A DNA stretch of 39,961 nucleotides. Source: Aliarcobacter sp. (lineage in GTDB: Bacteria; Campylobacterota; Campylobacteria; Campylobacterales; Arcobacteraceae). Below, piece after piece: positions 6,478 through 37,319 of this stretch. The position numbers were made by a program, and so were the translations under genes. Position 1 is the stretch's first letter. The number at the start of each line of letters is the position of its first letter. Under the pieces are notes generated by a model. That model saw nothing but the letters and a program-made list of their open reading frames with translations. It was not told where the DNA came from and made no database searches. The stretch lies in contig JAGOIF010000011.1 of the NCBI GenBank assembly GCA_017995775.1, positions 1 through 39,961 of the forward strand, in the 5' to 3' direction.

Positions 6478-8235
6478 TTAGATATCAGAAACTGTTTTTC
6501 TTAATCTGATTCCTAACTCTTTTAATTGTTCATCATCAACACTTGAAGGAGCTTGAGTTAATAAACATTGAGCTTTTTGCGTTTTAGGAAACGCAATAAC
6601 GTCTCTAATTGAATCAGTTCCTGCAAGAAGCATAATCATTCTATCAAGTCCTAAAGCAAATCCACCGTGGCTTGGAGCTCCATATTGAAGTGCATCAAGT
6701 AAGAAACCAAATTTCTCTTTTGCTTCTTCTTTAGAAATTCCCATAAGTTCAAATACTTTTGATTGAATCTCTTCTTTATGAATTCTAATACTTCCACCAC
6801 CAAGCTCTGTACCGTTTAATACAATATCATAAGCGATTGATTCAATAGCTTCTAAATCAGAAGTATCTTCAAGTGATTTTGGCATTGTAAATGGATGGTG
6901 TAATGCTTTTGTTCTTCCGTCTTCAACTTCGAACATAGGGAAATCAACAACCCATAAGAATTCAAATGCGTCTTTTGGAATAATATCCATTTCAGCTGCT
7001 AGGAATAATCTAAATCTTCCCATATAATCCCAAACTACTTTTTTAGACCCTGCTCCAAAGAATACAACGTCTCCCACTTCAAGTTGTGTAGCTTTAATGA
7101 TTTCTTCTAAATCAGATTCACTAAAGAATTTAGTTAATGGACCTTTTAATCCATCTTCTTTCATTTGAAAATATCCAAGACCTTTAGCTCCGAATTTTCT
7201 TACGTAATCTTCAAAACCTTTCATTTGTCTTTTAGAGAAGATATTATCTCCGTTTTTACATTTTAGGGCTTTGATTCTATTGTTCTTTTTATCTTTTGCA
7301 ATTTCTGCAAAGATTTCATTTGTTGAGTTTGCAAAAATATCAATAACATCAACAAGTGGCATTTCAAATCTTAAATCTGGTTTATCACATCCGTAGTTTT
7401 CCATTGCATCTGAATATTTCATTCTTTTAAATGTTGATGGAATTGTTTTACCACATTTTGTAAATACATCATAGATTAATTTTTCTGCAACTGCAATTAC
7501 ATCATCTTGATTACAAAATGACATTTCAACGTCTATTTGAGTAAATTCAGGTTGTCTATCAGCTCTTAAATCTTCATCTCTAAAACATTTTGCAATTTGA
7601 AAATACTTATCAAATCCTGCAACCATTAAAAGTTGTTTAAATAACTGTGGAGATTGAGGTAGTGCATAAAACTCACCTGGGTGAACTCTTGATGGAACTA
7701 AATAATCCCTTGCGCCTTCTGGAGTTGATTTTGTTAAAATTGGAGTTTCAACATCTAAGAAACCTAATTCATCTAAAGTATTTCTAGCTTGAATTGCTGC
7801 TTTTGATCTTAATTGAAAAATATTAAATGATTTAGTTGATCTTAATTCTAAGAATCTATTTCTTAATTTAATCTCATCATTTACTTTTTCATCATTAATA
7901 TCAAAAGGCATTGGTTTAGATTTGTTTTCAATAACTAAATTTTTTAAAACAATTTCAATTTTACCCGTTTTAAGATTTGGGTTTTCAAGTCCCTCACCTC
8001 TTGCTCTTACTATTCCAGTAGCTATTAAAACAAATTCATCTCTTACAGTTTCTGCAACTGTTAAAACGTCCTTACAATCACTTGGATCAGCAACAAGTTG
8101 AACTAATCCACTTTTATCTCTTAAATCTATAAATATAATTCCACCGTGGTCACGCCTACTGTTTACCCAACCAGCAACAGTTACCGTATCACCAATCTTA
8201 GCTTCAGTTACATCTGTACAATAATGTGTTCTCAA
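6478..8235 (-). CDS. aspS: Aspartyl-tRNA synthetase
   Basis: A class II synthetase of about 585 residues that charges tRNA-Asp. It has an N-terminal anticodon-binding OB domain ([19 protein letters not shown]), motif 2 ([18 protein letters not shown]), the bacterial GAD insertion (about 275-400), and motif 3 ([11 protein letters not shown]). The longest frame begins with GTG at 8253. I prefer the TTG at 8235: GGAG stands eight bases before it, and it gives the usual bacterial N-terminus MRTHYC. Many Campylobacterota lack an asparaginyl-tRNA synthetase and use a non-discriminating AspRS with GatCAB; that may apply here but cannot be shown from this window. It is 45 bases downstream of the lipoprotein gene and probably cotranscribed with it. 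Confidence 0.96.
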
Positions 8236-32415: not shown

Positions 32416-32832
32416 TTATCGTAATTTTACACTATACCCTTGTATAACATCTTCTATTGAAGAAATTAACTCTTCAAAATCAATTGGTTTTACTAAAAAA
32501 CCATTTGCTTGTAAGGGAATACATTCTAATAATATTTTTCTATCATCATTCGCAGAAAGAAAGATAAAATCACAATTTCTATCAATCTTTTTTATCTCTT
32601 TTATCATTTCAATACCATTTAAATTTGGCATATTTATATCTGTAATTATTAAATCTATATTATTTTCTTTAAACTTATTTAAGCCATCTTGTCCATCAAC
32701 AGCAATAATTATATTAGCAAAAATTATTGACAATACATTAGAAGTAGATTCCCTATTTTCTGCATTATCCTCAACATAAAGTAAATTTATATTCTTTGAA
32801 TATTCTAATATTTTATTTATTCTTTCTTTCAT
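32416..32832 (-). CDS. Free-standing response-regulator receiver domain (recent duplicate)
   Basis: 138 residues, a single CheY-like receiver with no output domain. Acid pair Glu21-Asp22, phospho-acceptor Asp65 (IITDINMPN), Ser93 and Lys115 are present, so it should accept phosphate. Residues 1-125 differ by only eight or so positions from the receiver of the EAL protein at 33534, and the DNA is about 97% identical over 399 bp (32461-32859 against 35160-35558), including the ribosome site and bases before it. Past the repeat the sequence ends quickly in VIQGYSVKLR. It is the last gene of the kinase / EAL / OmpR-like run, 31 bases after the OmpR-like gene. Possible roles are phosphate sink or diffusible messenger of the same kinase; this is inference. 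Confidence 0.88.
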   Translation of the reverse strand: MKERINKILEYSKNINLLYVEDNAENRESTSNVLSIIFANIIIAVDGQDGLNKFKENNIDLIITDINMPNLNGIEMIKEIKKIDRNCDFIFLSANDDRKILLECIPLQANGFLVKPIDFEELISSIEDVIQGYSVKLR

Positions 32833-32863: not shown

Positions 32864-33523
32864 TTAGAAAATTAATTTGTATCCATATCCATACTCAGTT
32901 ACTAAATATTTTGGTTCTAAACCATCATCATTTAATTTTATTCTAATATTTTTCACATGATAATCTAAAGATCTTGATGAACTTAAACTAGATAAAGATT
33001 CACACAATAAATCTCTTGTTAATGGTTTATTTTTATTATTAATCAATTTTTCTAAAATCTCAAATTCTATTTTTGTAAGATTTAATTGTTTTGAATTATA
33101 GTAAATACAATTATTTTTTATTTCAAATACTTTTTCATCTGTATTTACAAAAGAAGGTTTTTTTCTTAAATGTATTCTAATTCTGACTTCAAGTTCTTCT
33201 AAATATATAGGCTTAATCATATAATCAATTGCTCCTAGTTGAAAAGCATATAGTTTACTTTTTTTATCTGATCTTGCACTTATTATAATTATTGGAATAT
33301 CCAAATTATTAATTTGAGCATATTTTAATATTTCATAACCACTAAAATCAGGAAGACCTAAATCAAGGATAATAATATCAAATGAATATATACTCAAATT
33401 TGATAAAGCATCAGTTACTGTGGTTTGAGCAGAAACTTTATAATCATACTCCTCTAAAAATTCTTTTAACAAGAGAAGTGTATCTTCGTCATCTTCTATT
33501 AATAATAATTTATTTTTAATCAA
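32864..33523 (-). CDS. OmpR/PhoB-family response regulator
   Basis: 219 residues. A receiver at 1-120 with Glu10-Asp11-Asp12 pocket and phospho-acceptor Asp54 (IIILDLGLPDFSG) and Lys in YMIKPIYLEEL. A winged-helix DNA-binding domain follows at about 128-219 (TKIEFEILEKLINN, then RSLDYHVKNIRIKL and YGYGYKLIF). It should bind promoter repeats when phosphorylated. It lies between the two receiver-copy genes of the same operon, ten bases after the EAL gene, so it is probably a second output of the histidine kinase at 35539-37319. Confidence 0.93.
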   Translation of the reverse strand: MIKNKLLLIEDDEDTLLLLKEFLEEYDYKVSAQTTVTDALSNLSIYSFDIIILDLGLPDFSGYEILKYAQINNLDIPIIIISARSDKKSKLYAFQLGAIDYMIKPIYLEELEVRIRIHLRKKPSFVNTDEKVFEIKNNCIYYNSKQLNLTKIEFEILEKLINNKNKPLTRDLLCESLSSLSSSRSLDYHVKNIRIKLNDDGLEPKYLVTEYGYGYKLIF

Positions 33524-33533
33524 AATTTTCCTT

Positions 33534-35531
33534 TTATATTATTTTCAAAGAAATAGGTTTTCCAAAATAATAACCTTGTGAATAATCAACACCAATTTCA
33601 TTTAAAATATTAAAAATTGCTTCATTTTCTACAAATTCCCCAACGGTTTTAATATTTTGTTTTTTTGCAAAGGCAACTATTGTTTCTACTAAATCTCTAC
33701 TAAATACATCTGTTTGTATATTTTTTATTAATGATCCATCTATTTTTATAATATCAGGTTCAAATTCAAGGATTCTTTCAAAATTTGAATAACCTGCTCC
33801 AAAATCATCAATTGCGATTTGCACACCTTTATTTTTTATTTCTTTTATGAATCTTTTTATTACATCAAAATCTTTAACATTCTCATCTTCTAAAAGTTCA
33901 AATATAACTCTATGTGCATTTTCTTTGTGATTTTTAAGTAAGCTGAATATTTCTAATCTTGTTTGCTCTTTTTCTAAATCTGAAAAGGAAATATTAACAG
34001 AGAGTTCTGCTTTAATAGATTCTAAGATTTTAAAAGAATTTTCTAAAACTCTATGGGTAATTTTATTATAGTAATTTCCTTTTTTAGATATTTCTAAAAA
34101 GTGAAAAGGTGAAATTACATTTTCATTTTCATCAATTAATCTTACTAAAGATTCATATTTTTCTATCTCTTTTGTTTTATTATTTATAATTGGTTGGAAA
34201 TATGAAACTATTTTATAATTATCAAGAGCAATTTTTACAGTTTTAATCATCTCAAGATTATATTTTGCTTCTTTTGAAGCAACTATTGAACTATCATTTG
34301 AAAAACTTATTGCATTTTTTTCTTTTATTGCATTTTCAAGTCCAGTTACACAATCTTCATATAACATGTATTTTCCGATTCCATAACTAAGTGTTATACT
34401 TAAATCAAACTCTAAATCATCAACTTTTAAATTAGAATTTTTTACATTATCTATAAATTGATTTAAATATTCTTGTAGATTAAAATCTAGATTATTCAAG
34501 TTATCAAATTTCATCAATAAGCCGAATCGACCATTTCCCAAAGTATAAACATTTTCAAATTTATACTCAAATGCATACTCAGATGGTAAATAAGAAAGTA
34601 AATTAAAAGCAAAAGTATTTTCTATTTGACCCATAATTATATTGGTATAAAATTTTTCAAATATTTCAAATTCATCTATTTGTAATAAAACTAAAATCGA
34701 AAAATTATTTTCTTCAATTTGCTCAAATAAATATTTTTTATCATCAACTGAAGAATTAAGATTACTTCTTATTGTTATATATTCAACAATTTCACCTTTA
34801 ATATTTCTAATAGGAGTAATTATAGTTTTTATATAATAAGTACTTCCGCTTTTTGATTTATTCTTAAGTACTCCTTCCCACACCTTTTCTTTAACTTTAA
34901 TGGTATTCCAAATATCTTCATAAAGTTCATCTGGGTTTTCAAAATGTCTTATTACACGGTGAGTTTTATGCAAAAGTTCTTCTCTTTTATATCCACTAAT
35001 TTTGCAAAAATTATCATTTACATATGTTATTTCACCATTTGTATTTGTTTTAGAAATTATATTATTTTTATCAATTAAAGCTAAATATTGTTCATTATAA
35101 TATTCATTATTTTTAGACTCATGTAAAAGCTGTATTTTTTCAATAATTTCTTCAATCAAAGAAATTAACTCTTCAAAATCAAGTGGTTTTACTAAAAAAC
35201 CATTTGCTTGTAAGGGAATACATTCTAATAATATTTTTCTATCATCATTCGCAGAAAGAAAGATAAAATCACAATTTCTATCAATCTTTTTTATCTCTTT
35301 TATCATTTCAATACCATTTAAATTTGGCATATTTATATCTGTAATTATTAAATCTATATTATTTTCTTTAAACTTATTTAAGCCATCTTGTCCATCAACA
35401 GCAATAATTATGTTAGCAAAAATTATTGACAATATATTAGAAGTAGATTGCCTATTTTCTGCATTATCTTCAACATAAAGAAGATTCATGTTCTTTGAAT
35501 ATTCTAATATTTTATTTATTCTTTCTTTCAT
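33534..35531 (-). CDS. Response regulator: receiver-PAS-degenerate GGDEF-EAL (c-di-GMP phosphodiesterase candidate)
   Basis: 665 residues. A receiver at 1-125 (Asp65 phospho-acceptor) is followed by a PAS domain at about 150-255 (NGEITYVNDNFCKISGY, then PITPIRNIKGE-type PAC end). A GGDEF domain at about 270-410 is degenerate: the GGDEF site reads GNGRF, so it cannot make c-di-GMP but might bind GTP. The EAL domain (about 415-655) has YESLVRL in place of EAL, Asn in LSVNISF, Glu in FELLEDE, DDFGAGYS, Lys in IIKIDGS, Glu in VGEFVE and QGYYFGKP. The residues for metal and catalysis are thus present, and it should cleave c-di-GMP. The receiver puts this under the adjoining histidine kinase. Its first 399 bp are repeated downstream at 32461-32859. 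Confidence 0.92.
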   Translation of the reverse strand: MKERINKILEYSKNMNLLYVEDNAENRQSTSNILSIIFANIIIAVDGQDGLNKFKENNIDLIITDINMPNLNGIEMIKEIKKIDRNCDFIFLSANDDRKILLECIPLQANGFLVKPLDFEELISLIEEIIEKIQLLHESKNNEYYNEQYLALIDKNNIISKTNTNGEITYVNDNFCKISGYKREELLHKTHRVIRHFENPDELYEDIWNTIKVKEKVWEGVLKNKSKSGSTYYIKTIITPIRNIKGEIVEYITIRSNLNSSVDDKKYLFEQIEENNFSILVLLQIDEFEIFEKFYTNIIMGQIENTFAFNLLSYLPSEYAFEYKFENVYTLGNGRFGLLMKFDNLNNLDFNLQEYLNQFIDNVKNSNLKVDDLEFDLSITLSYGIGKYMLYEDCVTGLENAIKEKNAISFSNDSSIVASKEAKYNLEMIKTVKIALDNYKIVSYFQPIINNKTKEIEKYESLVRLIDENENVISPFHFLEISKKGNYYNKITHRVLENSFKILESIKAELSVNISFSDLEKEQTRLEIFSLLKNHKENAHRVIFELLEDENVKDFDVIKRFIKEIKNKGVQIAIDDFGAGYSNFERILEFEPDIIKIDGSLIKNIQTDVFSRDLVETIVAFAKKQNIKTVGEFVENEAIFNILNEIGVDYSQGYYFGKPISLKII

Positions 35532-35558
35532 TTTAGACCTATTTTTCTTTTATATTAT
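35160..35558. repeat. Direct repeat copy B (399 bp) of a receiver-domain segment
   Basis: Partner of 32461-32859. It includes the start of the receiver-PAS-GGDEF-EAL gene and runs a few bases into the end of the histidine kinase gene, whose stop is at 35539-35541. Confidence 0.95.
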
Positions 35559-37319
35559 TAAAACAAATTTTAAATGCCACACCAACAGAAGTGTTTGATA
35601 CTTCTATTGAGGCATTAAAGTTTTTTTCAAGTATATTTTTTACAATATATAAACCTAATCCCGTATTTGTTTTTTCAGATTTTGTTGAGAAATATGGTTT
35701 AAATATTTCTTTAATAATATTATGGGGAATAAATTCACCATTATTCTCAATTGTCACAATATATTTTTCTTCAATTATATCGGAACTAATAGTTATTATC
35801 TTTTCTTTATTTTTTGAATTAAGCAATGCATAATTAGCATTTTGTAAGATTATTAAAATGCAGTGTGATATTTCATTTGAAAATCCATTTAGATTAAAAG
35901 AGCTCAAATCATCAAATATAATTTTTATATCTTTTTTAAAGTAATAATTTTTTGAAAGTTCAATTGTTTTTAGTATTGAATCTTTTATATCAAAAGTATT
36001 TTTTCTTCCTCTAGGATGATTAAAATTAGTAAAATCATCTATTGTATTTGACATATACATAATTTGATTTAAAACATCCATTTCAAATTTATCAATAATT
36101 ATGTCATCAACCATTTTCTTTTTTAACTTTAAAACTATTGATTGCACAATAATAGAAATTTTGTTTAGGGGTTGTTTCCATTGATGTGTAATGGTACTAA
36201 GCATATCGCCCAAAGCTGCTTGTTTAGCTTGTAAAAACATACTTTTTTCAATATCTGAAATTTTTTTATCTCTTAATTTCAAAATATAAGTAAAAAGCAG
36301 TAATAGGAATAATAAAATTATTAAAGAAAGTGCAAAAAATGTCTCTTTGGGATATGTTTTCCAAATAGGAATAGGTTTATTTATAATAATTGCATCAGAG
36401 GGACACTTACTTTCATCAATTCCAAATTTTTGTAATACCTCATAATCTAAATATAGTTTAGCACAAGGTAAATCATAAATAAAGTTTCCTTTTTCAATCT
36501 TATTTACAATACTTTCAAGACTTTTAAAAGATATTTCATGGGCACTTTTTTGATATCCTCCAAGGGTTCCTGTTCCTATAAATGTATTCCAAAAACTATA
36601 TATAGGAGCATTTGAATTTGTAGCTATTATTTTTAAAAAATCTTTTGGAATATAATTTTTCCCTAAATAATCTTCAAAATTTAAAGTATAAAAAACTGCG
36701 CTATCTTTAGGTACTTTTGATAAAAATTCTTTTGTCTGCTCAACTAATAAATCTTTAACTATAACTGTATTAAATTTCTCTTTTCCTAATTCTTCAAGAA
36801 GCAAGTTTTCCATTAATATACCTATTTCGTTATAGGATTTTATTATGTAGATATTTTTAAGGTTTTCATTGTTTTGTTTTGCAAGTTTAATTGAATTTAC
36901 AATTAGCTCTTTTTTTGTATTATTTACTTGTAAGGTATCATTTTGTTGCTCAATATTAAAATCCGATATATAAATTTTGGGTATATCTGCATATAGTTTT
37001 TTAGAGAAGCTATTTAATATTTTAGAAGCAATCTCATTTTCTATTATTATTCCATCAAATTTAAAATCTTTATATTTTTTTTTAAGATAATTTTCCCAAT
37101 CATCATTTTCCATTTGTGATTTTAATCTTTTGTAATCAATGGATTCTGCATAAATATTTATTATTTTATTACTGTTTTTTTGTAATCCTCTATTCCAAGA
37201 AAAAAATCTTTTGACCAAGGATATGATTCATTAAAACTATGAAATATAAGAATATTTAGTGCTTTTTCTTGAGCAAAAAGTGCACTATAAAATATGAATA
37301 TAGATATAAATAATTTCAT
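35539..37319 (-). pseudogene. Sensor histidine kinase with periplasmic-binding-like sensor, frameshifted in an A7 tract
   Basis: The kinase is split by one base. From ATG 37319 the frame gives a signal peptide (MKLFISIFIFYSALFAQ) and LNILIFHSFNESYPWSKDFF, then hits a stop. The other frame, starting within the gene at 37218, continues the protein. The frames join in a run of seven A (plus-strand T, 37175-37181); eight would give one 593-residue protein. Its parts: ABC_sub_bind-like sensor (about 20-320), TM at about 328-347, H-box with the phospho-His in THQWKQPLN (about 379), N-box with NANYALL, ENNGEFI, and TGLGLYI. The first glycine box has Asn in place of the usual Asp. It could be phase-variable, a true pseudogene, or a sequencing error. 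First gene of the signalling operon. Confidence 0.8.

Follow-up and report, generated by a model that had tools for sequence, protein, structure and literature searches.

Frame changes at runs of adenine have been described both for two-component genes of Campylobacterota and for genes of AT-rich endosymbionts. In Campylobacter jejuni, the poly-A tracts of the sensor kinase gene flgS as well as the poly-A and poly-T tracts of flgR vary in phase, and the reversibility of these changes has been shown experimentally (PMC3930126, PMC4811654). Sensor kinases that switch through an A-tract are therefore a known kind, as exemplified by flgS. For endosymbionts such as Blochmannia, it has been proposed that slippage during transcription corrects frameshifts in A-tracts (PMC3017870). 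The sensor kinase gene described here, which lies in a window of 39,961 nucleotides from Aliarcobacter sp., resembles both systems. Like flgS and flgR, it is a two-component gene of the Campylobacterota with a frame change at poly-A, and like the frameshifted genes of Blochmannia and Buchnera it combines an AT-rich genome, a single A-run indel, and an open remainder. In contrast to flgS and flgR, it is represented by one sequence state, its kinase domain appears to be decaying, and its ortholog is broken by a nonsense codon. It also differs from the endosymbiont genes, whose genomes contain many tracts of at least nine bases and some of whose frameshifts are shared between species (PMC3017870), whereas the run in the window is an A7 that is not shared with the ortholog. 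A third group for comparison is formed by histidine kinases with an ABC_sub_bind sensor from the same family, mostly of 725-745 aa. Intact paralogs of about 730 aa exist, and one of them, G000:C164, is encoded by the genome of the window (G000) itself. These proteins share the sensor region and the HQWxQPL kinase domain with the gene described here, but in G000:C164 the frame is unbroken and a PAS domain separates the sensor from the kinase domain.

The kinase gene is encoded on the minus strand, and the sequence as reported shows its frame interrupted at an A-run. The frame starting with the ATG at 37319 opens with MKLFISIFIFYSALFAQEKALNILIFHSFNESYPWSKDFFLGIEDYKK, encodes a signal-peptide-like N-terminus and the start of the sensor, and ends after 52 codons with a stop at 37161 (37161..37319). 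A second frame on the same strand extends over 559 codons without a stop, counted from a TTG at 37218. The junction between the two frames is an A7 run (37181-37175), and joined at this position they encode a kinase of 593 residues, 48 from the first frame and 545 from the second. These 545 codons (37176-35542; 35539..37176 including the stop) contain neither a stop nor a second frame break. A hexamer-based coding-potential model that was trained on G000 and was blind to this finding places the frame switch at 37170/37169. Sequence and coding model thus bear out the first-pass annotation, which had assigned signal peptide and sensor start to one frame and the remainder to another, with an A7 as the meeting point and 593 residues as the length of the joined product. 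An ortholog from a genome of another genus (G053) aligns across the junction (GIEDYKK|NSNKIINIYAESIDY versus GINNFKNSTKQSVELFLESIDY). Because this alignment spans GIEDYKK in the first frame, the break is located at or close to the A7. A T7 run (37206-37200) that also lies inside the frame overlap was considered as the slip site and rejected on the same grounds.

The second frame encodes the sensor, the phosphoacceptor and the ATPase domains. The putative periplasmic sensor (36352..37176) is related to ABC_sub_bind (PF04392) and shows 28% identity to the 734-aa paralog G000:C164, which matches PF04392 at 4.9e-12. It is followed by one hydrophobic helix, judged by eye from the translation to be a transmembrane helix (36280..36339), by an HQWxQPL phosphoacceptor site, and by an HATPase_c domain (PF02518, E 2e-12). 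In the alignment of homologs, the phosphoacceptor histidine of the H-box THQWKQPL (H331; 36184..36186) is kept, with a change from Arg to Lys at position +3. In contrast, the G1 box of the ATP site (35731..35745) is degenerate and reads NNGEF where homologs have DNGxG; the Asp and the Gly found in 29 of 30 homologs each are replaced by Asn and Phe, respectively. Altogether, eight positions with a conservation of at least 97% in these 30 homologs have changed (A330T, R334K, D449Y, D478N, G482F, K490E, G504N, and G522A), and the G053 ortholog keeps the conserved residue at each of them. Only one near-invariant residue is lost by G053 alone, which gives a two-sided sign test value of about 0.04 (calculated by hand) for this comparison of two orthologs only. 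In the known ATPase fold, D478 and G482 are part of the G1 box and G504 is part of the G2 box of the ATP site. N442 in the N-box region is replaced by Ile in both proteins. In addition, the window kinase has the longest terminal branch among 32 sequences (0.98, compared to 0.62 for G053). With these residues lost, even an unbroken protein might not be a competent autokinase. These changes could also mark a functional pseudokinase rather than decay.

The kinase gene is the first gene of a tight operon, with gaps of about ten bases. A response regulator consisting of REC, PAS, a degenerate middle region, and EAL is encoded directly downstream (33534..35531, minus strand), followed by an OmpR-type response regulator (32864..33523, minus strand) and a stand-alone receiver. 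Both regulator genes are intact.

Among 103 other genomes of the family, the single-contig genome G053 contains the only close ortholog of the kinase that was found, which shows 46% identity and adjoins the same two regulators (61% identity for the REC-PAS-EAL protein and 60.5% for the OmpR-type protein). The N-terminal part encoded by the first frame aligns to the G053 protein with 47% identity over 45 residues. It is as conserved as the rest of the gene and has therefore been under the same constraint until recently. The G053 gene is also interrupted: an in-frame TAA stands after codon 20, just behind the signal peptide MKIKALFITLILFSLLLKAD (L100 (G053:C1), about 7700-7850, minus strand). 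The 573 codons after this TAA are open, with no start codon among the first 39. Thus each known copy has its own lesion among the first 50 codons, the TAA in G053 and the A-run break in the window. The G053 gene has only a short A-run at the position equivalent to the A7. A conserved programmed frameshift, raised as a candidate since the open frame of G053 lacks a start codon, was rejected because the interruption is an in-frame TAA and a long A-run is missing from the junction. The search for an intact 593-residue form that had been proposed for this locus yielded none in 30 genus mates, none of which encodes a close ortholog of the N-terminus or of the sensor, and the proposed comparison of the tract came down to the one interrupted ortholog. 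Public genome contigs and viral contigs contained distant kinase-domain relatives at most, and a class-level sample, to which G053 apparently does not belong, contained no additional kinase ortholog.

The EAL regulator's nearest relatives from ten genus mates (53-55% identity) are not accompanied by a kinase gene in their immediate neighbourhood, and the acidic pocket of the receiver or its conserved lysine is altered in the seven relatives that were inspected. Judging from these neighbourhoods and changed active-site residues, this type of regulator can evidently persist without the kinase.

To place the A7 in its background, A-runs were counted in a 333-kb sample of G000 consisting of the window and sampled stretches. 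Well inside unbroken coding segments, 309 A7, 65 A8, and 2 A9 runs as well as 105 T7-T9 runs were found. Compared to synonymous-codon shuffles of the same sample, runs of at least seven adenines are slightly rarer (434 observed versus 473), and the difference grows for runs of at least eight (85 versus 154) and at least nine (4 versus 44). As the shuffles predict more runs than are seen, long coding A-runs are strongly avoided rather than cultivated in this sample of the genome. The kinase gene itself contains a longer run, an A9 that is in frame and located 92 nt further on (37075..37083, minus strand). Nothing distinguishes the A7 from the other A-runs of the genome.

Taken together, these observations are probably best explained by a recent and real one-base slip in an ordinary A-run of a dispensable, decaying sensor gene, the regulators of which remain intact. 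The ancestral gene would have encoded a membrane sensor histidine kinase heading an operon with the REC-PAS-EAL and OmpR-type regulators. A one-base slip during replication would then have split its frame; the break and its place are directly visible, and the slip is the presumed cause. As no MutL was found in G000, a slip that escaped correction is plausible. Of all random substitutions in the 545 codons, about 4.7% would introduce a stop, and the fact that no stop is seen limits the number of neutral substitutions to at most about 62, or 3.8% of sites, at the 95% level. The break, and any decay of a pseudogene following it, is therefore young. The missense changes in the kinase domain are probably older than the frame break, and the sensor may already have been weakly constrained when its frame was lost. 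Translation would stop at 37161 so that no membrane sensor is made. The intact regulators may be transcribed less because of polarity from this early termination, and they probably act without a kinase or together with another one. Together with the slip in the window, a parallel loss of the sensor in the genus of G053 is the reading that the two interrupted copies would support best.

There is some, albeit small, likelihood that the A-run is instead subject to reversible slipped-strand mispairing, which would turn the kinase on and off and, through polarity, the whole operon with it, much as proposed in the first-pass annotation for an on/off control of a c-di-GMP and transcription circuit. 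The part of this proposal that stands is the break at the A-run, and flgS and flgR provide a precedent for switching at such tracts (PMC3930126, PMC4811654). The position of the kinase at the head of a tight operon also fits. Furthermore, MutL was not found in G000, and a MutS-like protein that is present scores under the mutS1 family cut-off. Without MutL, the repair of slips would be poor, and any A-run might revert from time to time. No feature of the locus, however, points to an evolved switch. Contingency loci are recognized by unusually long or enriched tracts, whereas the run in the window has an ordinary length among the hundreds of A7 and A8 runs that leave coding sequence unbroken in the 333-kb sample, and the longest runs are depleted there. 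The in-frame A9 in this gene would be expected to mutate more readily than the A7. Contingency tracts are also conserved or variable in length among relatives, but the single ortholog compared has only the short run and is itself broken by another lesion. Finally, the ATP site of the protein that would be switched is degenerate. In a variant of this reading, the A-run would act as a low-frequency reversible switch that sets the c-di-GMP phosphodiesterase and the OmpR-type regulator via the sensor and polarity, with the sensor being a pseudokinase and not an autokinase; we consider this variant improbable.

It is also unlikely that the break results from a consensus or assembly error and that the true genome has an unbroken kinase frame. 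Homopolymers are the classic place for base-call errors, the break sits at such a site, and the assembly of G000 is a draft of 209 contigs. However, about 480 coding runs of at least seven bases stay in frame in the 333-kb sample. Furthermore, among 132 transitions between frames on the same strand, only the kinase and one further case (in L105) have the properties of a break, defined as a junction that lacks a start codon within 30 nt and shows a frame overlap of more than 40 nt, a definition that misses breaks near gene ends. With homopolymers taken as A/T runs of at least six or G/C runs of at least five, the transition in L105 is not associated with one. With two such transitions and one of them at a homopolymer, the assembly is not riddled with homopolymer indels. 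In L105 (L105:3166-5354), a gene of about 730 codons lies right behind its upstream neighbour and has no ATG, GTG, or TTG near its start; it possibly uses an unusual start codon.

Far less probable is a rescue at the level of expression, in which slippage of RNA polymerase or ribosomes at the A-run yields some full-length kinase, as the first-pass annotation had also suggested. This idea draws on the correction of A-tracts proposed for endosymbionts (PMC3017870) and on the intact downstream frame. For RNA polymerase of E. coli, rescue is undetectable on A-runs shorter than eight (PMC6260861), a limit which the A7 does not reach, and a transcriptome-wide survey of E. coli and Buchnera detected no transcription error that restored a frame (PMC5574713). 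Transcriptional rescue at the A7 is therefore considered unlikely. Regarding the ribosome, the zero-frame codons at this site, TAC AAA AAA ACA, would permit slippage of a single tRNA only and do not form a canonical in-register heptamer for tandem slippage, and folding of the sequence after the A7 revealed no stable RNA structure beyond chance when compared with shuffled sequences (z -0.7 and -1.3). The stimulators of programmed ribosomal frameshifting are thus not found at the A7, and the suggestion that slippage restores the protein is weak.

Use of the gene for an N-terminally truncated protein that starts within the second frame is barely credible. The interruption falls among the first 50 codons in both known copies and leaves about 545 or more codons open, but an in-frame ATG is not reached until about 21 codons into the second frame, no start codon near the junction has a convincing ribosome-binding site, and a periplasmic sensor would be deprived of its export signal.

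If the gene is indeed decaying after a recent slip, it represents another case in which a sensor has been lost from a signalling operon while the regulators were kept, and a second genus shows a loss in parallel. Should strains turn out to vary at the tract, A-tract switching of a kinase as in flgS would extend to a c-di-GMP operon and to another family. In practical terms, the gene calls for caution: coding sequence of this AT-rich genome contains about one A7 per kilobase, and finding an A7 where a frame breaks is no evidence of a switch.

Two further observations concern the neighbourhood of the regulators. The nearest EAL-regulator relatives of the ten genus mates (L081-L090) adjoin a gene resembling molybdopterin oxidoreductases. 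In the window, the stand-alone receiver at the end of the gene series (32416..32832, minus strand) arose by recent duplication of the receiver-coding 5' end of the REC-PAS-EAL gene, with 94% protein identity over 131 aa. The duplicated stretches (32444-32743 and 35143-35442) are identical at 97% of 300 nt and lie 2.7 kb apart, and recombination between the two receiver copies would remove most of the EAL gene together with the OmpR-type gene.
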